This document shows, in pieces, positions 32,568 to 47,191 of a DNA stretch of 64,000 nucleotides (its first letter is position 1; every line of letters begins with the position of its first letter). Origin of the DNA: Nonomuraea angiospora (lineage in GTDB: Bacteria > Actinomycetota > Actinomycetes > Streptosporangiales > Streptosporangiaceae). The notes beneath the pieces are model-generated. The model was not told where the DNA came from. It did not search any database and saw only the letters and a list, made by a program, of their open reading frames with translations. The translations under genes and the position numbers were made by a program. The stretch is from NCBI RefSeq assembly GCF_014873145.1, contig NZ_JADBEK010000001.1, positions 4,650,001 to 4,714,000 on the forward strand, given 5' to 3'.

Positions 32568-33578
32568 GTGTCCGACATGACTCCGAGCGTGAGCGACAGC
32601 CCGAACCCGAGTGTGAGCGTGAGCCCGAACCCGGCTCCGAGCTCGTTCGTCGTCGCGCTCGACGTCGGCGGCACGTCCATGAAGGGCGGCCTGGTCAGCG
32701 ACTCCGGCGTGGTGCTGCTGAGCGAGCGGCGCCCGACCCCGCGGGCGGAGGGCCCGGAGGCGGTCGTGTCCGCCATCTCCGACTTCATCAGCCACCTGGC
32801 CTCCTCGGGCGACGGCACCCCGGCGGGCGTGGGCCTGGCCGTCCCCGGCCTGGTCTCCGACAACGCCGCCGTCTACGCCGCGAACCTGGGCTGGCGCGAC
32901 GTCCCCGCCACGAGCTTCACCACCCTGGACATCCCCGTCCTGCTCGGACACGACGTACGCACCGGCGGCCTCGCCGAGAGCATCCTCGGCGCGGGCCGGG
33001 GCCTGTCCGACTTCCTCTTCCTCCCCATCGGCACGGGGATCGCGGGCGCCTCGATCATCCGCGGCGAACCGTACGGCGGCTCCTCCGGCTGGGCCGGCGA
33101 GATCGGCCACACCCCGGTCTTCCCGGACGGGGAGCAGTGCGCGTGCGGCCAGTTCGGCTGCCTGGAGACGTACGCCTCGGCCGCCTCGGTGGGCCGCCGC
33201 TACAGCCAGCGCGCCGACGTGGAGGGCGTCAAGGCGGAGCAGGTGGTCTCCTCCGACGACCCGATCGCCATAGAGGTCTGGGACGAGGCCGTGGAGGCCC
33301 TGTCGCTGGCGCTGGCCACGTACACGCTCCTGCTGGACCCCACGGTGATCGTCCTCGGCGGCGGCCTCGCCGAAGCCGGCCCCGCCCTCTTCGACCCGGT
33401 ACGCACCCGCCTCGTCAAACGCCTCGCCTTCCGCGACGCACCCCCACTGGTGCCGGCCGCACTCGGCGTCGACGCCGGCATGCTCGGAGCCGCCCTCCTG
33501 GGCTGGCGCGCCGCCGGCCACCCCGAACTGGGCCCGGGGTGGACAGTGGATGTGCGATCGGGCCCCGTGGTGTCGTAA
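32568..33578 (+). CDS. ROK-family sugar kinase (glucokinase-like)
   Basis: 336 aa. The ATP loop ALDVGGTSMKGGLV, catalytic GHDVRTGGLAE, the second phosphate loop PIGTGIAGASII and the ROK zinc-binding signature GHTPVFPDGEQCACGQFGCLETYAS (EIGH His plus three Cys) are intact, with IVLGGGLAEAG near the end. It differs from PpgK at 2.8 kb, which lacks the Cys cluster. The first 25 residues are a low-complexity Ser/Pro/Asn/Val tail (PSVSDSPNPSVSVSPNPAPS). No Shine-Dalgarno is seen; TATCGT 7 nt before the GTG fits a leaderless transcript. An ATG at 32577 is also possible. Confidence 0.9.
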   Translation: MSDMTPSVSDSPNPSVSVSPNPAPSSFVVALDVGGTSMKGGLVSDSGVVLLSERRPTPRAEGPEAVVSAISDFISHLASSGDGTPAGVGLAVPGLVSDNAAVYAANLGWRDVPATSFTTLDIPVLLGHDVRTGGLAESILGAGRGLSDFLFLPIGTGIAGASIIRGEPYGGSSGWAGEIGHTPVFPDGEQCACGQFGCLETYASAASVGRRYSQRADVEGVKAEQVVSSDDPIAIEVWDEAVEALSLALATYTLLLDPTVIVLGGGLAEAGPALFDPVRTRLVKRLAFRDAPPLVPAALGVDAGMLGAALLGWRAAGHPELGPGWTVDVRSGPVVS

Positions 33579-33595
33579 GGTGTAGTGCCGATCAG

Positions 33596-33667
33596 GGGCG
33601 GTTAGCTCAGCGGTAGAGCACTCGCCTTACAAGCGAGGGGTCACTGGTTCGAACCCAGTACCGCCCA
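33596..33667 (+). tRNA. tRNA-Val (anticodon UAC)
   Basis: A complete cloverleaf: acceptor GGGCGGT/ACCGCCC, D arm GCTC/GAGC, anticodon stem CTCGC/GCGAG with loop CTTACAA, T arm ACTGG-TTCGAAC-CCAGT, discriminator A. CCA is not encoded. The anticodon stem-loop to 3' end is repeated three more times downstream, so the gene is the integration site of an element array. Confidence 0.96.
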
Positions 33668-33672
33668 CCTGC
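33624..33672 (+). repeat. att copy 1 (within tRNA-Val)
   Basis: 49-bp direct repeat from the anticodon stem through the tRNA end plus CCTGC. It is identical over all 49 bp to copy 4 at 41581-41629. Confidence 0.9.
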
Positions 33673-33708
33673 GTGAACATTTGATCTCTGATCTTGAAAA
33701 CGGCGTCT

Positions 33709-33730
33709 GAGTGACTAAGTGAGTGACTAA
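33709..33730. repeat. Arm-type repeat, copy beside att 1
   Basis: GAGTGACTAAGTGAGTGAC, a nested GAGTGAC repeat 37 bp from att copy 1 and overlapping the end of the first integrase. Near-identical units lie before att copies 2 and 4. Confidence 0.6.
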
Positions 33731-34161
33731 CTCCCGAAGATCTTGTCCATCGCCGCAGCTCCTTGCATGATCACGGGCCGGATCTGGTGCCGGTAGACCG
33801 TCTCGGTGACCACCGTGTTGGAGTGCCCGACCAGGCGCGAGATGTCCTCGATGGGGACGCCGGAGTCTGACAGCACGGACACAAAGCTGTGCCGCAGCTC
33901 GCGAGGGGACCACTCCCGCCCGGTGAGCCCCGCCCCCTCCACCACCTTCCGGAAGTCATGCCGTACGTTGTGGGCCGTGACGGGTGTACCGGTCCGCGTG
34001 CAGAACACGAGATCCGTACCCTTCCAGCGATCTCCCGCCTTCTCCTGAGCGATCTCTTGGGCTTCCTTGAGCAGGCGCAGCGCCTCCACGCAGCGCCGGG
34101 GCAGCTTGAGCGACCGGCGGGACTTCACCGTCTTGGTGTCGCCCTTCTGCCGGACGGACCG
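33727..34161 (-). pseudogene. Tyrosine-recombinase integrase, C-terminal remnant 1
   Basis: About 145 residues of the catalytic domain of an actinomycete site-specific integrase: KTVKSRRSLKLPRRCVEALR, TGTPVTAHNVRHDFRKV, the ELRHSFVSVLSDSGVPIEDISRLVGHSNTVVTETVYRHQIRP end with the Arg, His and Tyr of the active site. The N-terminal arm-binding and first catalytic Arg portions are missing. Homology stops where the divergent GntR gene begins, so that end was replaced. Its stop lies 60 bp from att copy 1, as expected for an integrase of an element in this tRNA. Confidence 0.88.
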
Positions 34162-34174
34162 AGGAAGGCGCACC

Positions 34175-35050
34175 ATGGAGACCAACACCGACGGCAAAGA
34201 CGCCCGCTGGCGCGTCATCGCCACCGACCTACGAGCCGCCATCCTGGACGGCCGCTACCCCCCCGGCGGCGCGCTGCCCAGCGAACCCGAACTCGTCAGG
34301 AAGTACGACGTCTCCCGCCCAACCGTCCGCAAGGCCATCGACACCCTCGTCTCCGAAGGCCTGGCTTACGTCATGAGCGGACGCGGCTCCTTCGTCCGCC
34401 CCATGCCCGAACGCCGCACCATCCTCATCACCGACCACGACCGACCCGACCTCGCAGCCCCCGGAAACCACCCCGATGTCCAGGCATTCGGCTGGGACCT
34501 CGCCCAACGCGACCGCGAACCCGAAGCCCCGCTCTTCACCAGCGAGAAGACCACCGCCAACCGCGACGTCGCGGTCATGCTCAGCGTCCGCCCCGGCCAC
34601 CCGGTCATCCACCGCCGCAGCATGTGGCACCGAGGCCACACCGCCGCCATCCACGGTGTATCGGCCTGCCTGGAGATCAACTCCTACACCAACGCCGACA
34701 TGCTCCCTGACTGGGACGACCCCAAGCGCCACGCCCAGTACCGCAAGCGCCCCGGCTTCTTCTACCAGTCCCTCATCCGCGAACACGGCCCCGTCCGCTG
34801 GATGACCCTCACCACCGCCCGCATCGCCTACGAAGACGAACGCACCGCACTCGGCATGGACTACGCCGAAGCCGTCCTCATCATCCGCCGCACCATGGCC
34901 CACCCCAACGGCCACCCCATCGAAGTCACCGAGGTCAAGGCCCCCGCCAACCGCTACGAGATCGGCTACCATCGCGAACTCGCCGACGACGCCGAAGCCG
35001 CGCTGACGTCGCAGGAACTCAGCGACAACGGCATTGATCTGGTGATCTAA
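34175..35050 (+). CDS. GntR/HutC-family regulator (KorSA-like, UTRA domain)
   Basis: 291 aa. The N-terminal winged helix is WRVIATDLRAAILDGRYPPGGALPSEPELVRKYDVSRPTVRKAIDTLVSEGLAYVMSGRGSFV, and a UTRA effector domain follows (LSVRPGHPVIHRRSMW, EDERTALGMDYAEAVLIIRRT, VTEVKAPANRYEIGYH). GntR regulators of this type (KorSA of pSAM2) control actinomycete integrative elements and sit next to int, as here; no rep or tra gene remains. GAGGAAGG precedes the ATG. The stop overlaps the convergent DUF4240 stop by 4 nt. Confidence 0.9.
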   Translation: METNTDGKDARWRVIATDLRAAILDGRYPPGGALPSEPELVRKYDVSRPTVRKAIDTLVSEGLAYVMSGRGSFVRPMPERRTILITDHDRPDLAAPGNHPDVQAFGWDLAQRDREPEAPLFTSEKTTANRDVAVMLSVRPGHPVIHRRSMWHRGHTAAIHGVSACLEINSYTNADMLPDWDDPKRHAQYRKRPGFFYQSLIREHGPVRWMTLTTARIAYEDERTALGMDYAEAVLIIRRTMAHPNGHPIEVTEVKAPANRYEIGYHRELADDAEAALTSQELSDNGIDLVI

Positions 35051-35634
35051 GTGCGACCGTAGAACGCGCGGATGAATCGATGGCTGCGTGGCACCCTGCG
35101 GGCCGCCTCCTCATCATCTTCTGGATCCCAACGCTCGTCGGTGGAATGAGGCGTTTCGTGGAACGCATGACCACGAGCCTCAAGAGCATCGAACAAGGCG
35201 TCGCTGCCTGTGCCTGTAACTTTCTCCCAAGCTGTGAGAGCCACGTAGGACAGGGATTCGAGCTCCGGCCAGTCGTCGTTAGTTCGGGGGATTCGATCTC
35301 GTTGCATAGTGAGAAAGCGCTGGACCTCTGGCACGTCCGCAAGTGTGTCCGGGTCGCCGGCGACCTTCTCGAAGGTCTCACGGCCGAGGCCGACCAACCA
35401 CATCTGGAAATACCGAAAGCTGTCGTTGCCGCCTATCAGGTGTAAGAGGGTGGCTGTGCCCCACATCAAGTTGGTGTCAACCTTGCGCCGAGCTTCCAGA
35501 ATCCACGACTCGAAGTCGATGATTTCTTCGGCGGAACGCGACGCCAACCGCTGTTCCAGCCACCTCAGGCGCGCTTCGTTCGGCCGGTGTCGTGCCGAAT
35601 GCTCGATCAGATGCCAGAACTCGTCGATGTCCAC
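35047..35634 (-). CDS. DUF4240-domain protein
   Basis: 195 aa from the GTG at 35634. It begins VDIDEFWHLIEHSAR, the usual DUF4240 start, and holds LMWGTATLLHLIGGNDSFRYFQMWLVGLGRETFEKVAGDPDTLAD and LSYVALTAWEKVTG. The C-terminus is charged (RWDPEDDEEAARRVPRSHRFIRAFY). DUF4240 proteins are frequent orphan genes in actinomycete accessory regions, function unknown. An ATG at 35682 would add 16 residues. Confidence 0.85.
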   Translation of the reverse strand: MDIDEFWHLIEHSARHRPNEARLRWLEQRLASRSAEEIIDFESWILEARRKVDTNLMWGTATLLHLIGGNDSFRYFQMWLVGLGRETFEKVAGDPDTLADVPEVQRFLTMQRDRIPRTNDDWPELESLSYVALTAWEKVTGTGSDALFDALEARGHAFHETPHSTDERWDPEDDEEAARRVPRSHRFIRAFYGRT

Positions 35635-36234
35635 CCCGGCGATCCTGGCATGGATCGACGACAGAACCGACAGTGGGCACATTCCGATCTGGCTCAGAGT
35701 TTCTTTACTGGTTCAAGGCGACGGCGCTCCGCGCCGTGCGCACGGCCCCGCGCCTGCCTGCCGTCCCCGGCATGCGGCCTGGAGGCCGGTCCCGGGCGGC
35801 AGCGGCTCGGGCCGTACCACCGCACGGCCGCCGCGCCGCCGTACACCCTCCGTGGCCGACCTCCGCACCGTCGCCGCCGCTCCGCCGCCGGCCCCCACCG
35901 CTTCGCGGCCCTTCGGGTGCTTCGCATGGGCGCCGGCCGCTCCGCTCGCACAGGACAGGACGACTCTTCAAGCCTTATGCCTCCGGCGGGAGCGCTCAGG
36001 CACCGAGGTGGTCACCTCGCACACCATCAACTCAGGCAATCCCAGCAGCCCGACTCCTCCGCATCAAGCCCGGCCCTGATCGCAGGACAAAGCATGATCG
36101 AGGAACGGCGACCGGCGAACGTACACGCGAAGCCGGGCTTGACACTCCGTCCCCGGCCCGCTGCCGCTACGCGGTGAGTCGACGGCGTACGAGGTGAGTA
36201 CGAAGCTGCCTCCCACCGGAACACGGTTGAGCGG
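35635..36234. other. 600-bp gene-poor interval with GC-rich hairpin A
   Basis: No convincing gene. Holds the dispersed hairpin (35757-35801) and some very GC-rich low-complexity DNA with fortuitous open frames on both strands. The end near 36.1 kb reads through the 3' end of the divergent small gene. Confidence 0.55.
35757..35801. repeat. Dispersed GC-rich hairpin, copy A
   Basis: Outer stem TGCCGTCC (35759-35766) with GGGCGGCA (35794-35801), inner stem CGGCCT/AGGCCG, loop region carrying GCATGCGGCCTGG. Two related copies lie at 38441-38478 and 42185-42240; the loop sequence is conserved while stems differ. Confidence 0.7.
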
Positions 36235-36729
36235 CTATCGCGACGAGGGAAGAGGGGACGCGGGACGCACCGCCCTCTCTTCCGCGGGCGGTGCGGCCAG
36301 ATGAACGCAGGCCGGGCAGGCGCGCGTAGCTGTGGGCAGGAAAGGCAAGCACCAGCCGAGGGTCGGCAGCGGACGCACTGCCTCGCCGCACAAGCTGACC
36401 TTCTGCTCGGCCCATACGGCATGCTGTATGGAGTTCCTCTCGTGGTGGGACAGGCCGAGCCGGTAGTCGCATGCTGGCTTCTCCGGTCTTGCCAGATCTT
36501 TGTGTATAAGCAGGTCATCCCAGTGGAATGCCCAGCGCTGCACCCCTCCGGGCAGTTCGTGCGGCTGTCCGTCGAGTTTGAGCAAGCCCAGGGTGCCGTT
36601 ACGCAGCACAGCTACCACGGTCCCGCGACGACCGAGCAGCGCTGAGCCCCACGCTCGTGTCTGCGCTGGGCTGTGGAGCATGTCCACGATCTCGGCATGA
36701 CAGCCGATTCGGAACGAAGGGCTTCTCAC
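36235..36729 (-). CDS. Small protein with SH3-like and Cys-rich parts, partner of the XRE module
   Basis: 164 aa, not assigned to a family. The N-terminal half looks like an SH3/KOW barrel (LLGRRGTVVAVLRNGTLGLLKLDGQPHELPGG..WAFHWDDLLI). The C-terminal half has CGEAVRPLPT...GWC and CPACVHLA, a likely zinc site. The GTG start overlaps the stop of the 71-aa gene (GTGA). This pair, divergent from an XRE-DUF5919 regulator, recurs in actinomycete genomes to my knowledge, but its role is undescribed. Confidence 0.7.
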   Translation of the reverse strand: MRSPSFRIGCHAEIVDMLHSPAQTRAWGSALLGRRGTVVAVLRNGTLGLLKLDGQPHELPGGVQRWAFHWDDLLIHKDLARPEKPACDYRLGLSHHERNSIQHAVWAEQKVSLCGEAVRPLPTLGWCLPFLPTATRACPACVHLAAPPAEERAVRPASPLPSSR

Positions 36730-36941
36730 AGCGCCTGCTCCGCTGCTTCCTGCTCCTTCAACCGCTCGGCCAGTTGAGCGACGTCATCCGCGTCGATCGT
36801 CTGGCAGAGACCGTGGTCTACCTCGTACTGGGATAGGCGCCGGCTGTTTCGAGTTGCCCAGAGACGTCCCCCAGAACTACGCCAAATGCACCAACCAGGA
36901 AAAGCCTCTTGGAGGTCTCCGAGAATTACCGGGGTTGACAT
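36726..36941 (-). CDS. Small conserved protein, first gene of the divergent XRE-module pair
   Basis: 71 aa from the ATG at 36941: MSTPVILGDLQEAFPGWCIWRSSGGRLWATRN, then a C-terminal acidic helix (DADDVAQLAERLKEQEAAEQAL). The FPGW-x-I-W-R-S-x-G-G-R-L-W-A-T-R core looks like a small beta sheet followed by a helix. It is coupled to the next gene by GTGA. A longer start at 36977 is possible but runs into the promoter. Function unknown. Confidence 0.72.
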   Translation of the reverse strand: MSTPVILGDLQEAFPGWCIWRSSGGRLWATRNSRRLSQYEVDHGLCQTIDADDVAQLAERLKEQEAAEQAL

Positions 36942-36989
36942 GGGATCAGCGTGCTTACCTTTGCGTGACGAACCCACCGCGTTATAGAG

Positions 36990-37036
36990 ACGTCCAGGAC
37001 GTTATGGCGTTACGCTCAAAAACGTCCCTGACGTCC
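36990..37036. promoter_or_regulatory. ACGTCC operator array before the XRE-DUF5919 gene
   Basis: A perfect palindrome ACGTCC-A-GGACGT at 36990-37002, then ACGTCC at 37022-37027 and GACGTCC at 37030-37036. It lies in the divergent promoter, 19-65 bp before the GTG at 37055, as expected for sites of a HTH repressor that controls itself and the two small divergent genes. Confidence 0.6.
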
Positions 37037-37054
37037 TCCGTCCCGAGGTGTACC

Positions 37055-37831
37055 GTGGCCAACGTCGCCCTACGCAGCGCCATGCTGAACGCCAAGGTCA
37101 CGAACCAGAGCTTGGCCGACCGGTGTGGCGTGGACGTCAAGACGGTGGAACGCTGGCTGCAGGACGAGGCTCGCGTCCCGCACCTGCGGCACCAGTGGGC
37201 CGCCGCAGAGGCACTAGGAGTTGAGACAGGCGTGCTATGGCCAGACGCAATTCGCAATACGGTGAAAACAGGGCCGGACAAGGAAGTATTGACCGTTTAT
37301 CCGTATCGCTCCGCGTGCCCGAAATCAATCTGGCGCAACCTCATAAACGCGGCGCGCAACGAGATCGTGTTCGCCGGTTATACGAACTACTTCCTGTGGC
37401 TGGAACACCCGAACCTGGCGAAGGTCCTCAAGCGGAAAGCGCAGCAGGGCTGCAAGATCCGGTTTCTCGTCGGCGACCCGGACAGCGAGGTCACCCGTCG
37501 CCGCGAGGAGGTGGAGAACGTCCCGCTAACCGTGTCCACGCGCATCCGGATCACGCTGGCGGAGATCGAGCAGCTACGCGACGTCCCCGGCATCGAGGCC
37601 CGGTACGGCGACGAGCACATAGCCATGAGCGTGTTCCGCTTCGACTCGGAGATGCTCGTCACGCCACACCTGGCCAATCTGGTCGGACACGACTCACCCA
37701 TGCTGCACCTGCGGCGCTACCAGGACGACGGCTTGTTCGACCGATTCGCCTACCACGCCTCCGAGCTGTGGAGCAACGGCCGTGACGTATGGCAGCAGCC
37801 GCAGCCCACGGGCCAGATGCTGGGTGACTAA
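37055..37831 (+). CDS. XRE-family regulator with DUF5919 (PLD-like) sensor domain
   Basis: 258 aa. The N-terminal HTH is VALRSAMLNAKVTNQSLADRCGVDVKTVERWLQDEARVPHLRHQWAAAEALGV. The C-terminal domain has the phospholipase D-like pattern NEIVFAGYTNYFLWLEHPNLAKVLKRKAQQGCKIRFLVGDPDS and HIAMSVFRFDSEMLVTPHLANLVGHDSPMLHLRR...DRFAYHASELW, but no HKD motif, so ligand sensing is likelier than catalysis. The GTG start fits family length. The gene ends just before the right arm repeat of the first integrated element. Confidence 0.85.
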   Translation: MANVALRSAMLNAKVTNQSLADRCGVDVKTVERWLQDEARVPHLRHQWAAAEALGVETGVLWPDAIRNTVKTGPDKEVLTVYPYRSACPKSIWRNLINAARNEIVFAGYTNYFLWLEHPNLAKVLKRKAQQGCKIRFLVGDPDSEVTRRREEVENVPLTVSTRIRITLAEIEQLRDVPGIEARYGDEHIAMSVFRFDSEMLVTPHLANLVGHDSPMLHLRRYQDDGLFDRFAYHASELWSNGRDVWQQPQPTGQMLGD

Positions 37832-37840
37832 GTGAGTGAC
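37824..37840. repeat. Arm-type repeat, copy before att 2
   Basis: GTGACTAAGTGAGTGAC, identical to the unit beside att copy 1, overlapping the stop of the XRE-DUF5919 gene, about 100 bp before att copy 2. Confidence 0.6.
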
Positions 37841-37936
37841 AATCGCCCCGGACGGCCCTGGACTCCAGAGGACCGCACGGGACCATAACTCCAGGTGGGG
37901 GCGGGTATCGGCCAAGATCCCGCCCCCTCCTGATGT

Positions 37937-37986
37937 GCCTTACAAGCGAGGGGGTCACTGATTCGAACCCAGTACCGCCCACCTGC
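37937..37986 (+). repeat. att copy 2 (tRNA-Val 3' half)
   Basis: 50-bp copy of the tRNA-Val 3' part; one extra G in the G run and GGTTC changed to GATTC relative to copy 1. Only the 3' half is present, so no functional tRNA. Confidence 0.9.
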
Positions 37987-37992
37987 GACAAG

Positions 37993-38022
37993 AGCCCCGT
38001 CTCCGATCATGGAAACGGGGCT
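37993..38022 (-). terminator. Hairpin after integrase remnant 2
   Basis: AGCCCCGT / ACGGGGCT, perfect 8-bp stem with a 14-nt loop, between att copy 2 and the stop of integrase remnant 2. A diverged copy lies at the same place beyond att copy 4. Confidence 0.6.
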
Positions 38023-38023
38023 T

Positions 38024-38045
38024 CGTGCCATTAACGTGCCATTAG
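38024..38045. repeat. CGTGCCATTA arm-type repeat, left
   Basis: Two tandem CGTGCCATTA units beside integrase remnant 2; matching tandem units lie at 39408-39429 at the other end of the same element. Confidence 0.65.
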
Positions 38046-38065
38046 CCGGGGCGAGAGAGCCCTGA

Positions 38066-38392
38066 TCAAGATCCATTGGGGTTGTTTGCGATCTTCGCGT
38101 TCATCGCGTCGGCGATCCTGCGGTCAGCCTCAGCCGTGCTGTGCTGATAGATCAGCGCGGCCCGGACCGAGTCATGCCCCATGCGCTGCATGAGATCTTT
38201 GAGACTCTCGCCGGAGCTCGCGGCGATCGTGTTGCCGGTGTGCCGGAGATCATGAAAGTGCAGACCCGGGAAGCCGATCTTTCTCGTGCTCTCGTCCCAC
38301 TTGGCCGCGCGCCGGAAGTTGCTCCGACGGAGGATGCCGCCCTGCGAGCCGGTGAAGATCAGCGCGTCGGCCTCTGGGGCGGTGAACTGATC
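38066..38392 (-). pseudogene. Tyrosine-recombinase integrase, C-terminal remnant 2
   Basis: About 108 residues: LDQFTAPEADALIFTG, GGILRRSNFRRAAKW, FHDLRHTGNTIAASSGESLKDLMQRMGHDSVRAALIYQHSTAEADRRIADAMN. The HxLRH, GH and Tyr (ALIY) motifs of the catalytic end are intact. It differs in sequence from remnant 1 and is close to remnant 3. Upstream of LDQF the coding sequence is lost in the GC-rich hairpin B region. The stop lies 80 bp from att copy 2. Confidence 0.88.
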
Positions 38393-38440
38393 AAGCGGCG
38401 GCGCGGCGCGCCGCCATACCCCCGGCCCCCCGCCCGCCCG

Positions 38441-38478
38441 CCGTCCGGGCATGCGGCCTGGGGGCCGGTCCCGGACGG
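38441..38478. repeat. Dispersed GC-rich hairpin, copy B
   Basis: Perfect 9-bp stem CCGTCCGGG / CCCGGACGG around GCATGCGGCCTGGGGGCCG, which itself folds (CGGCC/GGCCG). It lies just past the broken 5' side of integrase remnant 2. Confidence 0.75.
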
Positions 38479-38801
38479 CGGCGGGACACCGGGCCGGACA
38501 TCGCACGCCAGCCGCGCCGTACCGACCGAACGCTCCGACCGGGGTTGCCACGCCGCCGCACAGGTGCAGCCCTACGATCGCCACTGCATGGTCGGCCACC
38601 GTATGTGCTTTGGGGCGGTCGAAGGTCCAGGGCTTCGTTCCTCAGCCCTGGCCCACCGTATTCCCGTGTGCGGGTAGTGATCTCCAGACGCGGGCGGAAC
38701 CGCGGCACGAGTCGCGGATCTCTACCAGCTATCCGGGCACGGGGCAGGAGCAGATACAGAGCTGCCGATTGAGATGCAGATGCTCGGAGCCGTACGGCAT
38801 C

Positions 38802-39119
38802 ATGACGGATATGACCCATCTCAGCATCGAGGAGATCCGCGAGCGGAAGCGATGGGTCTTGTCTGTGATGGCGGAACAGGGCGGAAACTTCCTTCGACTA
38901 CCGCCGCGCGATCAGCCGTACACGTGCCCATGCTGCTTCCACCCGACCCTTCAGTACCGCGGCGGCTTCCAGATGTGTGATGAATGCTGTTGGGAGGACG
39001 ACGGACAGGATGATCACAACGCCGATGTCGTCATGGGTGGCCCCAACGGGTCGGATAGCTTGACCACAGAGCGGCGGCGCTACCGAGAGATGCGGGGACT
39101 GCCGCCGCTAGAGCTGTGA
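38802..39119 (+). CDS. CPCC-family cysteine-rich protein
   Basis: 105 aa. YTCPCCFHPTLQYRGGFQMCDECCWEDDGQDDHNAD followed by GGPNGSDSLTTERRRYREM is the Cys_rich_CPCC domain signature, a small zinc-binding protein frequent in accessory DNA and near toxin immunity genes. The N-terminus is a helix (LSIEEIRERKRWVLSVMAEQGG). The start is the ATG at 38802; one at 38811 is also in frame. It is the only cargo gene I see in the second element. Function unknown. Confidence 0.85.
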   Translation: MTDMTHLSIEEIRERKRWVLSVMAEQGGNFLRLPPRDQPYTCPCCFHPTLQYRGGFQMCDECCWEDDGQDDHNADVVMGGPNGSDSLTTERRRYREMRGLPPLEL

Positions 39120-39328
39120 CAGCAGCGGCCACGAACGAAGGCAGATCCTTAGATCGGTTGGCTCCGACTCGCGGGATATACGCGGGATGGTCTTCCCCCA
39201 GCGGGGATGTCTGAGAGCCATATCCAGAGGTCAGTGGCCTGATGTATCTAGCAACGTCGACCCGCTGTAAAACCGTCGGCAGTTCAACTCCATGCGGTGG
39301 ATCGCCCGTGGGGCGCCGGGTTCGCTTC

Positions 39329-39429
39329 CGTGCCATCTGCGTGCCGCAAGGCCGTGCCATACCGTGCCAGGTCCCGCAAGCGAGCGTCACGTCAGAGGCA
39401 TGATCGCCGTGCCATTAGCGTGCCATTAG
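39329..39429. repeat. CGTGCCA repeat array (putative integrase arm sites)
   Basis: CGTGCCA at 39329, 39353, 39363, 39408 and 39419, plus CGTGCCG at 39340. The last two are extended to CGTGCCATTAG. The array ends 80 bp before att copy 3, at the opposite end of the element from integrase remnant 2, which has the same units. Confidence 0.7.
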
Positions 39430-39508
39430 ACAGAATCGATCATGACGTAGCGAGCGCACTACGAGTGCGGGGGTGCAGGTCCAGACGTACAGCCAAGGGA
39501 TCATGGCT

Positions 39509-39556
39509 CCTTACAAGCGAGGAGTCACTGGTTCGAACCCAGTACCGCCCACCTGC
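39509..39556 (+). repeat. att copy 3 (tRNA-Val 3' half)
   Basis: 48-bp copy of the tRNA-Val 3' part with GAGGAGTC in place of GAGGGGTC. Flanked on the left by the CGTGCCA array. No integrase remnant is visible on its right. Confidence 0.9.
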
Positions 39557-39724
39557 ATCAGAAACCCGTGGCGATCACCCTTTGGGGCTGTCGGGTCATT
39601 GGCCCGCGCAAGTGGGTTTCGGCGAGATTGGCCTGATCAGTCGTCGCCCAACTGGACAACTCCTAGGCATCAGGGCCTGTCTTGTCCGGCTGGCGAACTG
39701 GCGCGCAAGGGCATCAGCCTCCCC

Positions 39725-41167
39725 CTATTCCGAGAGTCTCCGGTAGGTTGTTGACCGTCCTTGGCCCCCCAGTTGCTCGACGAGTCCTCTCAATCTCAGT
39801 TCGCGGAGTGCCTTGCGGATGTTGGGTGCGGACAGGTTCAGTTCCTGCTTGAGTTCAGCGACACTGCGCGTCCCGGCCGCCAAGGCGTCGTAGACGCGTA
39901 GCTCCGTCTCGTTCAGGTCGGAGCCCGGACGGATGACGGGACCTGCCTGCTGCCGTAGGACGACAGTGAATCGGATGGCGGCATCGATGTAATGCGCAGG
40001 TGGGAGCTCGGCCTCTGCCAGGGCGTTGGCCACGATCGGAATGCCGGTTGCCAGCGCCTCGATCACTCGCGCGCCTGTTTCTGGCGTGCGAGCGTGTTGG
40101 CAGATCGCAACGAGTCGCGCATTGCGTGCGGAGGTGACAGCATCCCGGCCGAGCCGATCGACCGTGATGCCGTACAGGCCGCCCGGGTTGGAGACGATCA
40201 ACCGGTCACGGCGGAGCCGAACCTCTACGGCCATGCCGGCCGACCAATGATCGAGGTCGCGATGGATAAGAGCATTCGCGATGATCTCGCGGAAGGCGAT
40301 GTACGGATAGGCGGGCTGATCACGAACGGTCCCGTCCGGAGCCGACACGACGCTGGTGTCAAAGGTTCGCCGTGCCCAGTGCAAGGCGTCTTCCAGCATC
40401 CGCGGAATGGCCCCGGTGATCGTCGTCTGATTCCGAGCCCGCGATCCTGCGGGATCGGTCGGCAATGGCTCCGCCGAAGCCTGGATGACGAAGCGCGGAA
40501 ACCACTCCTGTGGATGGACCCCCAAAGCCAACAGACCTGCGACGGTCGGAGTGCCGTCGGGCAGAGTCACTCCGGCACGCCGGAGCAACTCGACATCGTC
40601 AGGGAAACGGCCGAGGCCGTGGGGATCCCGTTCGCGCACCGAACGTAGGAATGCTGTGACAAGGTCGCCGTCCAGGTCCTCACGGGTGGCGCCTGTCACG
40701 GGTTGCCGGTCGAAGAGCGGTGGCTTACGGGCGGCAAGGAATGCCTGCTCTTCCAAATCCGACAGTGGGAAGTCCCCGTCGTACCCCCGCATGTATGCCG
40801 TGCCCGACGCCGCGATCCGACACGGCTTGGCCGACGGATCGCATTCATGCACTCTGGCGACGATGACCGGCGCCCCGTCCACTTCTGCGTCGCTGATCGT
40901 GAGCTGAACAGGCGGTGAGAACGAGCGAGCCTTGTGAGCGAGGCCCTGCTTGAGAGCTTGCGGATCTGAAAGCTGTACCGGACGAAAGCCGGTGGCCTCG
41001 TCGAGGCCGAGGATGATCGTCCCGCCACCTGGATGGTTTGCGAGCGCGCTCAGAGTTGAGGCGAGCGACTGCGGCAGCCCTCCTGCCGCCGACTTGACCT
41101 CGACATCGTCGTAGTCTCCCCCGGTCGTGCGGAGACGTGCGACCAACTCGTGCACGTGCTGGCTCAT
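39725..41167 (-). CDS. AlbA_2/Schlafen-type ATP-binding protein with C-terminal winged helix
   Basis: 480 aa. The N-terminal AlbA_2 (Schlafen AAA_4-like) domain shows DDVEVKSAAGGLPQSLASTLSALANHPGGGTIILGLDE. A middle part resembles the HATPase_c_4 family (YPYIAFREIIANALIHRDLDHWSAGMAVEVRLRRDRLIVSNPGGLYG). The C-terminal winged helix (LNETELRVYDALAAGTRSVAELKQELNLSAPNIRKALRELRLRGLVEQL) binds DNA. Homologues are called ATP-dependent DNA helicase RecG-like or putative transcription regulators; some belong to defence islands. The ATG at 41167 sits 2 nt from a perfect palindrome, which suggests self-repression. It is the sole cargo of the third element. Confidence 0.88.
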   Translation of the reverse strand: MSQHVHELVARLRTTGGDYDDVEVKSAAGGLPQSLASTLSALANHPGGGTIILGLDEATGFRPVQLSDPQALKQGLAHKARSFSPPVQLTISDAEVDGAPVIVARVHECDPSAKPCRIAASGTAYMRGYDGDFPLSDLEEQAFLAARKPPLFDRQPVTGATREDLDGDLVTAFLRSVRERDPHGLGRFPDDVELLRRAGVTLPDGTPTVAGLLALGVHPQEWFPRFVIQASAEPLPTDPAGSRARNQTTITGAIPRMLEDALHWARRTFDTSVVSAPDGTVRDQPAYPYIAFREIIANALIHRDLDHWSAGMAVEVRLRRDRLIVSNPGGLYGITVDRLGRDAVTSARNARLVAICQHARTPETGARVIEALATGIPIVANALAEAELPPAHYIDAAIRFTVVLRQQAGPVIRPGSDLNETELRVYDALAAGTRSVAELKQELNLSAPNIRKALRELRLRGLVEQLGGQGRSTTYRRLSE

Positions 41168-41169
41168 AG

Positions 41170-41219
41170 GTAAATGTAACCATGGACTGGTTACATTTAC
41201 TCGAGTTCTGGTTACATTT
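41170..41219. promoter_or_regulatory. Perfect 12-bp palindromic operator plus third half-site before the AlbA_2 gene
   Basis: GTAAATGTAACC (41170-41181), 7-nt spacer, GGTTACATTTAC (41189-41200), then GGTTACATTT again at 41210-41219. It is AT-rich in a GC-rich genome and abuts the start codon. Confidence 0.8.
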
Positions 41220-41465
41220 CGTCCTGTTCCGATCCGGCGCCCCCAGACGCGTAGCCGCCCAGCGAGTCCGGCATCCCGGAGCCGACCGTCCAAGCACCAC
41301 GCGGCCTGACGAGTTCCCGATCGACGTGATGCCGAGCCGCTCCATCCGGCGCCGCCGACTTCACCATCCTCCTGTTCGAGCGCCTTGCCAGTCCTCTCAA
41401 AGCCGCAACCACCGCTCGTTCGCCAGGGGACAGCCCATCTGAAAACACGGCCACGTCGTCCCACT

Positions 41466-41484
41466 GAGTGACTATCTGAGTGAC
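41466..41484. repeat. Arm-type repeat, copy before att 4
   Basis: GAGTGACTATCTGAGTGAC, about 100 bp before att copy 4, like the units at 33709-33730 and 37824-37840. Confidence 0.55.
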
Positions 41485-41580
41485 AACAGCCAGGGACGAG
41501 CGTGGACGGCCGAGGACTTGGGCGGAGCGTTTGCCGAGACCAGAACCCACGTCACCCAAGATCCCACCTTCTCCTGACGA

Positions 41581-41629
41581 GCCTTACAAGCGAGGGGTCA
41601 CTGGTTCGAACCCAGTACCGCCCACCTGC
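41581..41629 (+). repeat. att copy 4 (tRNA-Val 3' half)
   Basis: 49 bp identical to att copy 1 in the intact tRNA gene. Followed by integrase remnant 3 and a diverged copy of the GCCCCG...CGGGG hairpin. Confidence 0.9.
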
Positions 41630-41696
41630 ATCAAGAGCCCCGTCTCCGATCACGGAACCGGGGTTTCGCGCTATTAGCCGGTGCGAGAGACCGTTT

Positions 41697-42130
41697 GAAG
41701 ATCCATCGGAGTGGTTCGCGATCTTCGCGTTCAGGGCGTCGGCCATCCTGTGGTCAGCCTCCACCGTGCTGTACCGGTAGATCAGCGCTGCCCGGACCGA
41801 GTCATGTCCCATGCACTAGATGAGCCCCTTTGAGACTCACGTCGAAGCTCGCGGCTATCGTGTTGCCGGCCTGCCAGGGATCATGGAGCGCAGACCCGGG
41901 AAGCCGATCCCTCTCCTGCTCTCATCCCCCGTGGCCGCGCGCCGGAAGTTGCTGCGACGAAGGATGCCGCCTCGCGAGCCGGCGAAGATCAGCACGTCGG
42001 TCTCTGGGGCGGCGAACTGGTCGAGGTGGTCGCGGAGCACCGGGATGGTCACTTCCGGGATCGCGACCGTACGAACTCCCGCACGGCCCACGAGGAACTC
42101 GCCCATGCCGAGCACGACGTGCTGTTGCCG
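41697..42130 (-). pseudogene. Tyrosine-recombinase integrase, remnant 3, multiply broken
   Basis: Close to remnant 2. Pieces include RTVAIPEVTIPVLRDHLDQFAAPETDVLIFAG, GGILRRSNFRRAA and MGHDSVRAALIYRYSTVEADHRMADALNAKIAN. Defects seen: a one-base frameshift after GFPGLR (near 41.88 kb), an in-frame TAG at 41816-41818 where remnant 2 has CAG, and loss of the stop (TGA to TCA), so the frame runs on into the att copy. It keeps about 40 residues more on its N-terminal side than remnant 2 before hairpin C. Confidence 0.85.
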
Positions 42131-42184
42131 AACGCGGACGGCCCGGGCCGCGAGTCGAGCAGCGGCGCGGCGTGCCTCCGTACG

Positions 42185-42240
42185 CCCCGCGCCGCGCGTG
42201 CGGCCTGGGGGTCGTTCTCGCGCGAGCGCCGCGCGGGGCA
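42185..42240. repeat. Dispersed GC-rich hairpin, copy C
   Basis: Stem GCCCCGCGC / GCGCGGGGC (perfect 9 bp) with inner CGCGCG pairs and loop GTGCGGCCTGGGGG. It lies at the broken 5' side of integrase remnant 3. Confidence 0.65.
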
Positions 42241-42398
42241 CCGCCGTACGCCCGCCCCACCCGTACGCCCCTGACCCGCCGACCAAGCGCCGCACCGCCG
42301 CAGAGCGGACTGGCCCGTGATGCCAACCACCCAGCGGACCAAGGCCTGGGGCGACGGCGACGGCGACGGGGTGATCGGCCTGGAGGTCTGTACGCGAC

Positions 42399-43598
42399 TC
42401 AGCCGCGTTCGCGCATCGCGAGGAAGCAAACGACAGCCGCCACCGTCAAGACCGGAACTCCAACGAGGATCGGCGCTCTCAACCCCCACTCGGCCGCCAG
42501 CAGGCCACCGAGGAGGGCTCCCAGCGGAGACGCGCTCATCACCGCGGTCATCGCCGCGCTGCTCACTCGACCGAGCATCTCGGCTGGAGTAAGCCGCTGA
42601 CGAGTAGTACGGGCCACGACGGCCCACACGCCGAACGCAGCACTCGTGATGACCAGACCCACGGCCACCACGACGGCAGAAGCGGTAAGGCCGATCATCA
42701 GTTGCCCGATCGCGGCGAAACCGAGGCACCCAGCCAGAGCCCCCCCAGGTCCGATCATTCGCGTGACCCGTGTCGCGAAGAACCCTCCGGCGAGCCCCCC
42801 AACGGCGCCGACGCCCAGCAACACGCCATAGCCCCAAGCCGGTAGACCGAGGACCTGAGGCACGTAGAGCACGAGCACGGCGAACCAGGCACTGTCCATC
42901 GCCGCGAACACGGCACCCAAGCCCACGATCATTCGCAAGCGAGGATGTTTGATCAGCCACCGCAGACCGGCGCGCGTGTCACTCCAGATCCGGCCCTTGG
43001 TGCCGTACGAACCGGCTTTCGGCGCGAACACGTCAGGCAGGCTGAAGATCAGAGCGGCCGCCAAGGCCAGGGCTCCGCCGTTGACTGCGAACGGGAGCAC
43101 CAGCGCCACGCCGAATAGATATCCACCGATCGGCGGCCCCACTAATTCGTTCCCCGCGACCTCGGCGTTGACCAATCCACCGTTGGCCCGGTCGAGATCG
43201 GCGTCTTTCACCAGAGGCGGAAGGAGCGTGGCCGTTGCGGTGTCGCGCAGCGTCTCGCCTACACCGCAGACGAACGCCACCAGGTAAAGCAGCGCGATCC
43301 CGGCAAAATCCAGAGAAACCGAAACGACCAGGACGGCCAGCATCGATACCCGAACCACATCGACGGCCGCAGCAAGGCGACGCTGGTCAAATCGATCAAT
43401 GATCGCCCCGGCGAACAGCCCGAACAACAACCACGGGCTCTGCCCGGCGATGGCGACACCAGCCACCGCGACCGGATCAGAGGTGATGGCGGCTGCCAAC
43501 AACGGCAAGGCGGCCATCCGAATCCCATCGCCCAGATTGGACAGCACCGTCGCCAGCCATAACCGGTGGTACGCCGGTCCCAATGACGCCGAAACCAT
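42399..43598 (-). CDS. MFS transporter (EntS/MFS_3-like exporter)
   Basis: 399 aa with 12 predicted helices. The N-terminal LWLATVLSNLGDGIRMAALPLLA, GAIIDRFDQRRLAAAVDVVR (the A-motif region) and AFVCGVGETLRDTATATLLPPLV, with RANGGLVNAEVAGNELVGPPIGGYLFG, are typical of the MFS_3 family that includes EntS and macrolide-type exporters. Substrate unknown. GGGAGAGGGAG precedes the ATG. The upstream inverted repeat (43616-43667) suggests a dedicated repressor, but none is adjacent. It may be cargo of the fourth element. Confidence 0.92.
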   Translation of the reverse strand: MVSASLGPAYHRLWLATVLSNLGDGIRMAALPLLAAAITSDPVAVAGVAIAGQSPWLLFGLFAGAIIDRFDQRRLAAAVDVVRVSMLAVLVVSVSLDFAGIALLYLVAFVCGVGETLRDTATATLLPPLVKDADLDRANGGLVNAEVAGNELVGPPIGGYLFGVALVLPFAVNGGALALAAALIFSLPDVFAPKAGSYGTKGRIWSDTRAGLRWLIKHPRLRMIVGLGAVFAAMDSAWFAVLVLYVPQVLGLPAWGYGVLLGVGAVGGLAGGFFATRVTRMIGPGGALAGCLGFAAIGQLMIGLTASAVVVAVGLVITSAAFGVWAVVARTTRQRLTPAEMLGRVSSAAMTAVMSASPLGALLGGLLAAEWGLRAPILVGVPVLTVAAVVCFLAMRERG

Positions 43599-43615
43599 CG
43601 GCTCCCTCTCCCGTA

Positions 43616-43667
43616 GATCTGATCATCTATGTGCAGGCAACCCGAGGCAGGCTTAGAAGATCAGATC
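43616..43667. promoter_or_regulatory. 13-bp inverted repeat upstream of the MFS gene
   Basis: GATCTGATCATCT (43616-43628) and AGAAGATCAGATC (43655-43667), complementary at 12 of 13 positions with a 26-nt spacer; the outer 9 bp are perfect. It starts 18 bp before the MFS start codon. The rest, to 44113, holds no gene I can support. Confidence 0.55.
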
Positions 43668-44113
43668 ACAGTGCCGTTCGAGAGGTCTATCTTGATCCAC
43701 TCTCGGCGAACAAGCCGAAGTAGCCGCAGAAGGGATCACGCAGCCCTGGGCGTGCGCTGTCGGCTCGGCTTGTCGGTCGAGAGCAAGCCATGGTTTCTCC
43801 CGGTGCGACGAGGCAGGCGAACGGCTCAACATGCCCCTTGGACACCGGAACAAGGCCGAGACTCAAGATCCGGGATATGCGCGGGATGAATTGCGGACTG
43901 CCGGCGCCGCGGTCAATCAGAAGTGCAGGTCGTAGTGCTGACTGGACGCGCTGACACAGAAGGTGCGCGAGGGCGGGCGTAGGCAAGGCCATGGTCTTCG
44001 CCGCTCGGCGATCAGCCCTCGGATCGACTCGGCCGATCCGGTCGCGGTGGCCACGACTCATCGCACCGCCGTTCGCGTACATCTCGTGCCGCCATATGGG
44101 GAGATGTCCACCC

Positions 44114-45307
44114 ATGGGCGATAGGTGGAGACATTTAACCGCATCGGCCGAGCGACAGGTCGCCTATGTCCGGGCGCAGCTCGCAGGGCTGGCCAGGCCG
44201 GATTCGCACCAGCGGTTACAGGTGCGGCAGATCGCCAAGGCCACCCTGGCGGCGGTGCTGGCCTGGCTGGTGGCCAGCCGGCTGTCGCTGTCCCAGGCGG
44301 CCTGGATCGCGCCGGCCACCGCCGTGATCATGGTGCACGCCACCGTCTACCAGACGCTGACCAACGGGCTGCGCCGCGTCGCGGCCGTGGCCACCGGGGT
44401 CATCCTGGCCGGCGCCGTCGGATACGTGATGGGCCTGGGCGTGCTGAGCCTGGTCCTCATCGTGCCGCCCGCGCTGCTGGCCGCGCGCTGGCGTCGGATG
44501 GGGCGTCACGGCAGCGACGTCGCCACCACCGCCGTGCTCATGCTGTCCTTCGGCGCCGCCTCCGAGGAGGGCTATCTGCTGGGCTACGTCGTGGCCACCG
44601 CCATCGGCGCGATGAGCGGGATAAGCGTGAACCTGCTGCTGTGGCCGCCGCTGTATCGCGACCGTCCCGTCCTGGCGGTACGCCGCCTCGGCCGTGAGAC
44701 CGCCGCCCTGCTCGGTGCCATGGCCGAAGGGCTGCGCGACGGCTGGGATCTGTCCGAGCTGCCGGAATGGGAACGCCAGGCCGTACGCCTGGACGAGCAT
44801 CTGGCCGCGGCCACCACCGCGGTGGCCGACAGAACCGAGAGCCGTCGCTACAACCTGCGCCTTCGCCTCCATCCGCGATCCGGCGCCGCCGACCCGAGCC
44901 CGGTGCTGCGGCTGCTGACGTCGGCGGCGGCGCACGTGCACGCCATCGTGCACGCCCTGTCCTACCTCGACCACCCCGCCGCTCCGGGGACCGGCCCCGG
45001 GCAGCCGGCCGACGTCAGCGACGACTACGCCCGCGACTACGCCGACCTGCTCGACCTGCTGGCCGAGGCGCTGGCCAGCAAGGTACGCCGCGGCGACCCC
45101 GCCCATACGCATGAACTGATCGGCCGCGCCCAAGCCCATGCCGCCCGCATCCATGAGCGGATGACCAGCGAGATCCGCCACGGCGAGATCGAGCACCCCG
45201 GCGGCTGGGCGCTCAGCGGCAGCCTGCTCACCGACGCCGACCGCATCCTGGCCATCCTCTCCGACCACCAGGACACCCTGCCCGGCTACGGCCGAGCGAA
45301 GACGTAA
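44114..45307 (+). CDS. FUSC-family (aromatic acid exporter-like) membrane protein
   Basis: 397 aa. The N-terminal cytoplasmic helix leads to six hydrophobic segments (IAKATLAAVLAWLVASRLSL, GVILAGAVGYVMGLGVLSLVLIVPPALLA, YLLGYVVATAIGAMSGISVNLLLWPPLYRDRP), then a long helical cytoplasmic domain, the layout of the FUSC/ArAE_1 family (AaeB and YccS relatives). Its substrate is unknown. I chose the ATG at 44114 with GGGGAG upstream rather than a longer frame from 43991. Confidence 0.88.
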   Translation: MGDRWRHLTASAERQVAYVRAQLAGLARPDSHQRLQVRQIAKATLAAVLAWLVASRLSLSQAAWIAPATAVIMVHATVYQTLTNGLRRVAAVATGVILAGAVGYVMGLGVLSLVLIVPPALLAARWRRMGRHGSDVATTAVLMLSFGAASEEGYLLGYVVATAIGAMSGISVNLLLWPPLYRDRPVLAVRRLGRETAALLGAMAEGLRDGWDLSELPEWERQAVRLDEHLAAATTAVADRTESRRYNLRLRLHPRSGAADPSPVLRLLTSAAAHVHAIVHALSYLDHPAAPGTGPGQPADVSDDYARDYADLLDLLAEALASKVRRGDPAHTHELIGRAQAHAARIHERMTSEIRHGEIEHPGGWALSGSLLTDADRILAILSDHQDTLPGYGRAKT

Positions 45308-45314
45308 GGCGCGT

Positions 45315-45668: not shown

Positions 45669-45725
45669 GGCCGGTTGTGCTTCATGACCATCTCGGTGCT
45701 GCTCCCTCGGCTTGACTGACGCAGG

Positions 45726-46451
45726 TCACCGGGGCCGGTGGCCCTTCCTTTTACGGTCGGCCGCGACCGCCCGGCGGCCGGAGCGGTTCTTCGCGGGTTT
45801 CTGTGGCTGCCGCTGTGCCGGTTTCTCCGCAGGGGAGGCAGGGGTACGGCCCCGCGAGCTGTTCACTGTCCGGCCACGCACGATGCCGATGAAGTCCTCC
45901 ACCAGGTCGGTGGTCGCGTCCGTGGGCCAGGCCAGGGCGACCTGGGACTGCGGCGCGTCCGACACCGGCCGGTAAGTGAGGTCCCTGCGGTGGTGGAGGC
46001 GGGCCAGCGACTGCGGAACCAGGAGAAGCCCGGCGCCGGCCGCTACGAGCTCGATCGCCTCCGCCGTCGTGGCCGGGCGGGTGAAGGCGGGCAGTCCGGG
46101 CCGGACCGTCCACTCGATGGTGTCGTCCAGAGGATGGAGCACCTCCTCGTCGGCCAGGTCGGCGGCGGACACCTCGTCGACGGCGGCCACCGCGTGGTCC
46201 TTGGGCACCACGACCACCGTGGTCTCCACGTAGAGCGGAATCACGCTGAGCCCGTCCCTGTCGACCGGCAGCCTGACGAAGCCGGCGTCGGCGCCGCCGT
46301 CCCGGAGGAGACCCACCGCCTCGGCCGCGGCAACCGTGGCCAGGGTGATCGGCACGTCGGGCATCCTCTCCGACCAGATGTTGACCCATTTCGCGGGTGT
46401 CACCCCAGGCACGTACGCCAGCCGGAACACCTTGGTCTCCCCGTCAGTCAC
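45726..46451 (-). CDS. LysR-type substrate-binding domain protein without HTH
   Basis: 241 aa. It begins directly at the effector domain (FRLAYVPGVTPAKWVNIWSERMPDVPITLATV), with the two Rossmann-like lobes (DAGFVRLPVDRDGLSVIPLYVETTVVVVPKDHAVA; AGAGLLLVPQSLARLHHRRDLTYRPV). No DNA-binding HTH precedes it; the region upstream is the short promoter shared with the divergent DUF5997 gene. The C-terminus is a 40-residue basic Lys/Arg/Pro tail (KPAQRQPQKPAKNRSGRR...), perhaps nucleic-acid binding. The pairing with DUF5997 recurs in actinomycetes to my knowledge. Confidence 0.85.
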   Translation of the reverse strand: MTDGETKVFRLAYVPGVTPAKWVNIWSERMPDVPITLATVAAAEAVGLLRDGGADAGFVRLPVDRDGLSVIPLYVETTVVVVPKDHAVAAVDEVSAADLADEEVLHPLDDTIEWTVRPGLPAFTRPATTAEAIELVAAGAGLLLVPQSLARLHHRRDLTYRPVSDAPQSQVALAWPTDATTDLVEDFIGIVRGRTVNSSRGRTPASPAEKPAQRQPQKPAKNRSGRRAVAADRKRKGHRPR

Positions 46452-46506
46452 GTCCTCAGGGTATCGATGTCATGGAAACCCGTTCCGACTGACTACTCTT
46501 GACGTC

Positions 46507-46887
46507 ATGACCTCGTCCAAACCGAAGAGCATCCAGACGATGAAGCCCGAGACGGCGGCCAAGAAACTGGGTGTCCTCCTCTCGGCCACTCCCGCCGAGT
46601 TCCAGGCGGGCGTCGTCTCCAGGGACGAGCTGAACGAATTGCAGTCGAGGCCGCCCGCCTGGCTCACTGAGCTGCGCCGCAACGGCCCGCACCCCAGGCA
46701 GGTCGTCGCCGCGAAGCTCGGGGTCTCCAATTCGGGCCTGATCAGAGCCGGGATCACCGAACCGCTCACCACCGCCGAGATCGATGCGCTGAAGGCGGAG
46801 AACCCGGCGTGGCTGGAGCACGAGCGGTCCGTCCAGGCCGAGGCCCGCAAAGAAGCACTCCGCCTCAAGCAACGGCAGGACAGCTGA
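46507..46887 (+). CDS. DUF5997-family protein
   Basis: 126 aa. KPETAAKKLGVLLSATPAEFQAGVVSRDELNELQSRPPAWLTELRRNGPHPRQVVAAKLGVSNSGLIRAGI is the family core; the second half resembles an HTH (QVVAAKLGVSNSGLIRAG), and a charged helix ends the protein. Divergent from the LysR-effector-domain gene with a 55-bp gap. One attractive idea is that the pair forms a split LysR-like regulator, with DUF5997 supplying DNA binding; this is inference. Confidence 0.85.
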   Translation: MTSSKPKSIQTMKPETAAKKLGVLLSATPAEFQAGVVSRDELNELQSRPPAWLTELRRNGPHPRQVVAAKLGVSNSGLIRAGITEPLTTAEIDALKAENPAWLEHERSVQAEARKEALRLKQRQDS

Positions 46888-47191
46888 GATCCCGCTCGTC
46901 TCCGGCCCGAGACAAGCCCGTCGAAACCAGAGAGCCGGTGATTTCACTCCGAGCCGCGCGATCGCCTGGTGATCGGCGTGATTCAGCGCATTGATGTATT
47001 GGTCAACAGCGACGCGGGGTCAGAGGCGCCATTCTCGGATTGGGGTGCACAGCCGATCAGGGCCGAGCACCCGACAAAAAAATGGATACCCACGCAGGAG
47101 CCAAGAGTGCAGGGAAGGTGTGGGCGTCACGCATACCAGGATTGCGTTGCGTCAGACTTCTGCAGCCCAGCGCCGTATCCGGTCTCGCCGG
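46888..47191. other. 300-bp interval without a gene
   Basis: Between the DUF5997 stop and the end of the FtsX-like gene. No hairpin or gene stands out. Confidence 0.5.

Follow-up and report, generated by a model that had tools for sequence, protein, structure and literature searches.

Behind a single tRNA-Val(UAC) gene of Nonomuraea angiospora lies a stack of four segments, almost certainly built by accretion from actinomycete integrative and conjugative elements (AICEs) that are now remnants. The array was studied in a window, the whole stretch of 64,000 nucleotides (G000:C1:4650001-4714000) taken from a genome of one contig and 13.09 Mb. All coordinates below are window positions; G and L labels denote genomes and fetched loci or stretches, respectively (L062 is also L215, and segment 2 is also L203).

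The explanation that we consider highly probable as a whole combines accretion, two element families, shrinkage, and deletion at a nick-like site. Two families with unrelated tyrosine integrases (classes A and B) and distinct arm repeats would recombine with the same 3' half of the tRNA gene. A newcomer would enter beside the tRNA gene, restore it, and displace older elements outward; the order of the stack would then approximate age, with the youngest element at the tRNA gene. Each element would shrink through internal deletion until the attachment (att) copies, the 3' end of the integrase gene (int), and cargo are left. In segments 2 and 4, int abuts exactly the nick-like site of a putative rolling-circle origin, a fusion that would most simply have arisen from mis-cleavage by the replication initiator RepSA and joining at a CTNGA look-alike; segment 1 has an ordinary 4-bp junction instead.

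The tRNA-Val site and its segments

ARAGORN found one tRNA-Val(tac), and a repeat finder found four direct copies starting at 33625, 37939, 39509, and 41582. The two agree with an earlier note, made from the letters alone, which had described an intact tRNA-Val(UAC) followed by three further direct copies of its 3' half. As it had also stated, copies 1 and 4 share an identical sequence of 49 bp and the inner two differ (Table 1). A 23-base core, searched with up to 2 mismatches, occurs at four places in the genome, all at this locus, and the reversed core used as a control at none; no repeat is scattered elsewhere. The same note had ended the array at copy 4 (41629), which falls short: a fourth segment without a distal att copy follows, and the variable region is 33673 to about 45720, where the chromosomal flank returns. 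This flank is a LysR-like gene, present at 81-96% identity in 29 of the 56 tRNA-Val loci of the genus that were compared (up to 20 kb each); the rest reach a contig end or the 20-kb end, or give no match. The gene has an open frame at 45726-46451 of 241 aa, against 409 aa in L055, and may be truncated. A ROK gene is the flank on the other side of the array. No Rfam family besides the tRNA was found in 33400-46000.

The genus set comprises 54 genomes, Nonomuraea by their names: that of the window and 53 others. A search for a 41-base core that allowed up to 3 mismatches found it in all 54, in 1 to 5 copies, and at least twice in 28; copy 2 of the window escapes this search owing to its inserted base. 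Of the 28 multi-copy genomes, 25 have the listed copies within 27 kb on one contig, and in G031, G039, and G050 they lie on two contigs. Complete elements stand at the same tRNA-Val in other genomes: L059, L062 (5.14 kb), and L096 have att copies and, by Pfam, integrase, RepSA, and FtsK; more loci have these three genes by tblastn. Integrase, RepSA, and GntR genes are present in L055 and L069, neither of which gave an FtsK match. Judged by gene content (integrase, RepSA, FtsK), the complete site-mates in sibling genomes are pSAM2-type AICEs, and by homology the window segments are internally deleted relatives of such elements. In G022, which the ROK gene (97.5%) places closest to our genome, the array is partial: segments 2 and 3 are absent, and a single core links the right part of segment 1 to segment 4, whose first bases are missing. 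The earlier note had proposed that several elements used one site in succession and then lost replication, transfer, and integrase genes, and had asked for partial arrays in relatives; the complete elements, the variation in copy number, and the array of G022 bear the proposal out.

Segments 1 to 3 are bounded by direct repeats that include the tRNA 3' end, as AICEs are, and segment 4 lacks the distal copy. None of the window segments has the other defining parts, namely a complete integrase, RepSA, and FtsK/TraB. In tblastn searches, four RepSA proteins gave no match in the array (RepAM was not searched for), four FtsK proteins revealed no FtsK/TraB transfer gene, and of integrases only 3' ends were found, in segments 1, 2, and 4, with none in segment 3. 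The proposed loss of replication and transfer genes is well supported, and that of the integrases is incomplete: truncated 3' ends persist beside copies 1, 2, and 4. Four full RepSA genes lie elsewhere in the same genome (PF20199, genome-wide). Among the cargo labels of the earlier note, GntR-UTRA, DUF4240, CPCC, AlbA_2, and MFS (major facilitator superfamily) are upheld by Pfam, and DUF5919 is not, its match being below the cut-off.

Segment 1 is of type A. Its left 492 bp and its GntR stretch are 95% and 93% identical in DNA, respectively, to a 16.6-kb element (L069); segment 1 itself lacks the remainder of int and the rep gene, with the junction in a 4-bp ACCG match. Segment 2 is of type B, and its int end, origin-like element (described below), and right end are 84-88% identical to L062. 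Segment 4 looks like an older type-B remnant by its sequence. Its MFS and FUSC genes have high-identity counterparts among the 56 loci only in G022; the MFS match in L083 is 27% identical.

Integrase classes, arm repeats and probable order of insertion

Integrases of classes A and B are 20-23% identical to each other, whereas two members of class A are 70% identical and two of class B 78%. On these identities, two unrelated integrase families share one tRNA site. The ends of the elements differ accordingly in their arm repeats, GTGAC at type-A ends and GTGCCATTA at type-B ends. Forty segments across the genus have two bounding copies; a class could be assigned from tblastn results to 28, and the other 12 were left out. 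Class A goes with A arms in 13 segments and class B with B arms in 12; two class-B segments have A arms, and one is undecided. Arm type thus matches integrase class at both ends in 25 of 27 decidable segments (Fisher p 6e-6), so a segment between neighboring att copies is usually one element.

New elements probably insert next to the tRNA gene. An intact integrase (one piece covering at least 95% of the query, leaving out loci L081 and L105 and matches of <50% identity) is present in 11 of 30 first segments and in 0 of 16 later ones (p 0.008). Read outward, the integrase remnants of the window are 95, 84, and 58% identical to the nearest query, the first being of the other class. Core mismatches were also tried as a clock and rejected (rho 0.26, p 0.11, with the value for copy 2 of the window set by hand). 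Thirty of the 33 integrase matches in the genome of the window were covered, and none proved to be an intact integrase of either class, so integrase-driven excision would need a helper.

Deletion scars at an origin-like element

A GC-rich element is present at 35713, 38391, and 42155, and recurs in the genus. Of 53 genomes, 47 contain a 19-base pattern taken from it, and the reversed pattern used as a control occurs in none (positions are those among the matches listed). A first set of 100 distinct copies was examined, then a second set of 40; in 92 of the 100 and 31 of the 40, the sequence TCAAG lies 30-90 bp to the left of the pattern. The reverse of the TCAAG side reads hairpin-CTTG^A, which we take to be like the nick sequence of the pC194 family. 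Folded as single strands, segment 2 and L070 reach z scores of -3.7 to -4.0 against shuffles, and segment 1 reaches -2.4. The AICE pMR2 has GCCGAATTG-N12-TCAAG-hairpin, the same layout as in Nonomuraea, and pSAM2 itself is placed in the pC194 family by its Rep motifs and nick site (te Poele et al., as told in PMC3218068). The element resembles a rolling-circle double-strand origin and is a putative one. Two other identities were rejected. The first was the 5' end of ftsK: the element overlaps an ftsK frame in L062, yet similarity of that frame to other FtsK proteins ends at residue 117. The second was a discrete transposable element, against which speaks the conserved left context, in place of a clean end, of most copies. 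In segment 1, a stretch at 36007-36197 with a AAGCCCGGC...GCCGGGCTT inverted repeat is found in elements of both classes (L055, L059, L068, L069, L077, L096, L103).

Of 102 copies (the 100 plus segments 1 and 4), 30 show homology to int, rep, or ftsK on their left side within 3 kb, many of the stretches being shorter than 3 kb, and the nearest match always has one orientation. This homology reaches TCAAG in nine: int in segment 2 (L203), L094, L104, and L253; rep in L239, L260, L266, and L280; and ftsK in L215 (L062). In the second set it runs up to TCAAG in L331 (rep) and L311 (int), and the junction of segment 4 at the nick-like site is seen at the DNA level. When every copy with int, rep, or ftsK within 100 bp of the element or running into it is counted, 12 of the 20 junctions coincide with TCAAG. 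The chance of this is about 1e-10 over a 190-bp span, a guide only, as the span was chosen by the analysts and the genomes are related. Moreover, 7 of 9 distinct endpoints have TCNAG at the break in at least one intact homologue, compared with 181 of 32158 positions; only L104 (GCGAG) and L311 (CCGAG) do not. Segment 2 shares its endpoint with L094, and L260 with L280; each pair may be a single old event. It is moderately probable from these patterns that the replication initiator, RepSA, made the deletions by cutting the origin and its look-alikes and joining the ends.

Alternatively, the scars are ordinary microhomology deletions, and defective elements with an intact origin persist longer. 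Native sites do have TCNAG in common with the element, the deletion of segment 1 has 4 bp of microhomology, and some junctions fall at other points of the element. Yet ordinary microhomology should use many positions, and 12 of the 20 junctions use the same five edge bases; selection for an intact origin should also retain the conserved left context, which is lost in those junctions. This alternative is possible, if somewhat doubtful.

Several observations weigh against the combined account of accretion and nick-site deletion. Two segments combine a class-B integrase with A arms, although one of them (L056) holds pieces of both integrases, and the number of core mismatches shows no significant increase with position. 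RNAalifold found no covariation in the hairpins, only an invariant apical stem, and a search of the type-A elements L077, L079, and L096 (first segment) did not find the origin-like element. Eight of the 20 junctions are off TCAAG: four inside the element (L284, L298, L322, L328), three 40-77 bp to the left (L271, L269, L308), and L289, which is weak. The look-alike CTNGA in ftsK is present in 1 of 6 listed homologues (L059), and the ACCG junction of segment 1 is away from the nick. A prediction set before the second set of copies held in part: 2 of 3 TCAAG-keeping copies with a core gene within 100 bp agreed, three further copies without TCAAG have a gene running into the element, and one of the two exact junctions, that in L311, has no TCNAG.

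We tentatively regard it as a real possibility that RepSA goes further and prunes its own elements, through the origin and CTNGA look-alikes in int, rep, and ftsK, into satellites with att, arms, origin, and cargo, which would be replicated and integrated by helpers and form strata behind tRNA genes throughout the genus. If RepSA does make the scars, decay would be a specific reaction that leaves potentially mobilizable satellites and shuffles cargo genes.

Other copies of the cargo genes were seen as follows. A block of 891-894 bp from the nick through the CPCC gene (38390-39280) is 96.4% identical at L188:7393-8285 in the same genome, where it adjoins an integrase remnant and a tRNA-Arg, an AICE remnant. 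Near that tRNA-Arg, two integrase-bearing stretches of about 1 kb (L188:5666-6677 and L189:7858-8869) are 99% identical, in opposite orientation, about 36 kb apart. The XRE/DUF5919-like protein (37055-37831) has matches of at least 88% identity in 15 of 53 other genomes, mostly off the tRNA-Val site.

Table 1. Features of the tRNA-Val locus and the state of its segments (window positions).
Feature	Position	Strand	Basis
tRNA-Val(UAC), integration site	33596..33669	+	ARAGORN; Rfam RF00005
att core copy 1, within tRNA 3' half	33624..33672	+	repeat finder, sequence comparison
Type-A arm repeat, segment 1 left end	33711..33727	+	arm analysis
Class-A integrase, codons 251-394 of 394 only	33730..34161	-	tblastn, 95% aa to L055; Pfam PF00589
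GntR-UTRA regulator	34175..35050	+	Pfam; 92% aa to AICE gene of L069
DUF4240 cargo gene	35047..35682	-	Pfam
Origin-like GC-rich element, segment 1; TCAAG at 35713; type-A left context intact	35713..35838	+	sequence comparison
XRE/DUF5919-like cargo gene	37055..37831	+	open reading frame 36854-37831; DUF5919 20.8 bits vs curated cut-off 23.5
Type-A arm repeat, segment 1 right end	37824..37840	+	arm analysis
att core copy 2; extra G plus G-to-A change	37937..37986	+	repeat finder, sequence comparison
Type-B arm repeats, segment 2 left end	38025..38044	+	arm analysis
Class-B integrase, codons 233-341 of 341 only	38069..38395	-	tblastn, 84% aa to L062; PF00589
Origin-like element, segment 2; int joined directly at TCAAG (38391-38395)	38391..38658	+	predicted nick CTTG^A on minus strand
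CPCC cargo gene	38811..39119	+	Pfam; 99% identical second copy at tRNA-Arg locus, same genome
Type-B arm repeats, segment 2 right end	39409..39428	+	arm analysis
att core copy 3; single G-to-A change	39509..39556	+	repeat finder, sequence comparison
AlbA_2/HATPase/winged helix-turn-helix (wHTH) protein, segment 3; 480 aa with start chosen here	39725..41167	-	Pfam (SLFN_AlbA_2, HATPase_c_4, wHTH), tblastn
Type-A arm repeat, segment 3 right end	41468..41484	+	arm analysis
att core copy 4	41581..41629	+	identical to copy 1 across 49 bp
Degraded class-B integrase, segment 4	41699..42127	-	tblastn, 58% aa to L062 codons 195-341
Origin-like element, segment 4; TCGAG replaces TCAAG; int joined at its edge	42155..42301	+	sequence comparison
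MFS transporter	42399..43598	-	Pfam; also at this site in G022 (97% aa)
FUSC/ArAE-like gene	43991..45307	+	Pfam; also at this site in G022 (96% aa)
LysR-like conserved chromosomal flank, outside array	45720..46925	-	29/56 fetched loci; LysR_substrate in L055 homologue

Possible movement of single segments, and known systems

Segment 3 (39555-41581) has a degenerate B-like left end and a type-A right end, and from these ends it looks like a hybrid. With att on both sides and neither integrase nor transfer genes, it has the structure of a cis-mobilizable element (CIME). In G023 the whole segment, both att copies included, is found again at 94.8% identity, with other neighbors on both sides, compared with 88.2% for the ROK gene there. 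Its protein has ten matches in the 53 genomes; eight are at least 82% identical, and seven of those sit at this tRNA (three partial). Such recurrence would fit a cassette-like platform on which att-flanked units that lack an integrase, segment 3 among them, move singly and are mobilized in trans. On the other hand, the two ends of segment 3 carry different arm types, the integrase matches covered in this genome include no intact one of either class, the eighth match (G011) sits elsewhere with no att core within 18 kb, and insertion and loss of neighbors accounts for the differing contexts without any movement of segment 3. Such a platform is unlikely. Tandem duplication of one element with later divergence, in place of independent insertions, is very improbable: segments 2 and 4 do have blocks 83-90% identical around their att copies, but the integrase of segment 1 is unrelated (20-23%), its arms differ, and complete elements of each class are known in other genomes.

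The unlinked copy in G011 (L186:7867-9364) comprises the AlbA_2 gene together with the repeats 5' of it; it is 89% identical and lies in an unrelated context. In the window these repeats (41168-41220) are a TGTAACCA...TGGTTACA inverted repeat plus a third TGGTTACATTT, immediately 5' of the AlbA_2/wHTH gene. They are largely conserved in L072, L054, L093, L078, and L186, and by position and conservation are likely an operator. A role of the protein in defence was considered and set aside; in PADLOC, a pAgo model matches the AlbA_2/ATPase part (E 3.6e-16) and Csa3/CasR models match in the wHTH part.

In streptococci, ICESt1-type elements form tandem accretions and CIMEs, att-flanked remnants without integrase, beside one site. 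Their conjugation system differs from that of the elements described here, and the ends of segment 3 are unmatched. Closer parallels are found among AICEs. PMC9513070 describes AICE accretion at a tRNA-Arg and AICE decay in a Streptomyces population: several AICEs and remnants lie behind one tRNA with direct repeats and different integrases (39-88% identical there), and decayed copies retain a partial integrase plus cargo. The present case differs from that account in the tRNA (Val), the genus, the distance between the classes (20-23% identical), the matched arm repeats, and the scars at nick-like sites. PMC3218068 reports AICEs in tandem from Frankia, at a tRNA-Lys, and from Streptomyces avermitilis, at a tRNA-Arg; there are two elements per tRNA, with integrases of different sub-families in S. 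avermitilis, and those elements are counted as AICEs, whereas the window holds remnants only. AICE accretion with different integrases and AICE decay are thus already in print in these two sources. PMC3218068 (2011) did not settle whether anything prevents different AICEs from using one integration site and building tandem arrays. Across Nonomuraea, arrays do contain two unrelated integrases, and their order and arms make the history partly readable.

The less expected part is the hairpin origin-like element with deletion scars at CTTG^A. In plasmids, deletions ending at the pC194 nick site were reportedly obtained experimentally by Michel and Ehrlich in 1986. The likeness lies in one deletion endpoint being at the origin nick, deduced here from natural scars; the searches made of open-access papers showed no report of nick-anchored deletions in AICEs. 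A second likeness is to the mobility of qacC on staphylococcal rolling-circle plasmids, for which PMC5037232 presents a model of double-strand origin, gene, and single-strand origin. There a cargo gene travels with a rolling-circle origin at its edge, as the CPCC gene would do here with the putative origin. The differences are that qacC resides on staphylococcal plasmids, whereas the elements described here are integrated and no single-strand origin was identified in them.

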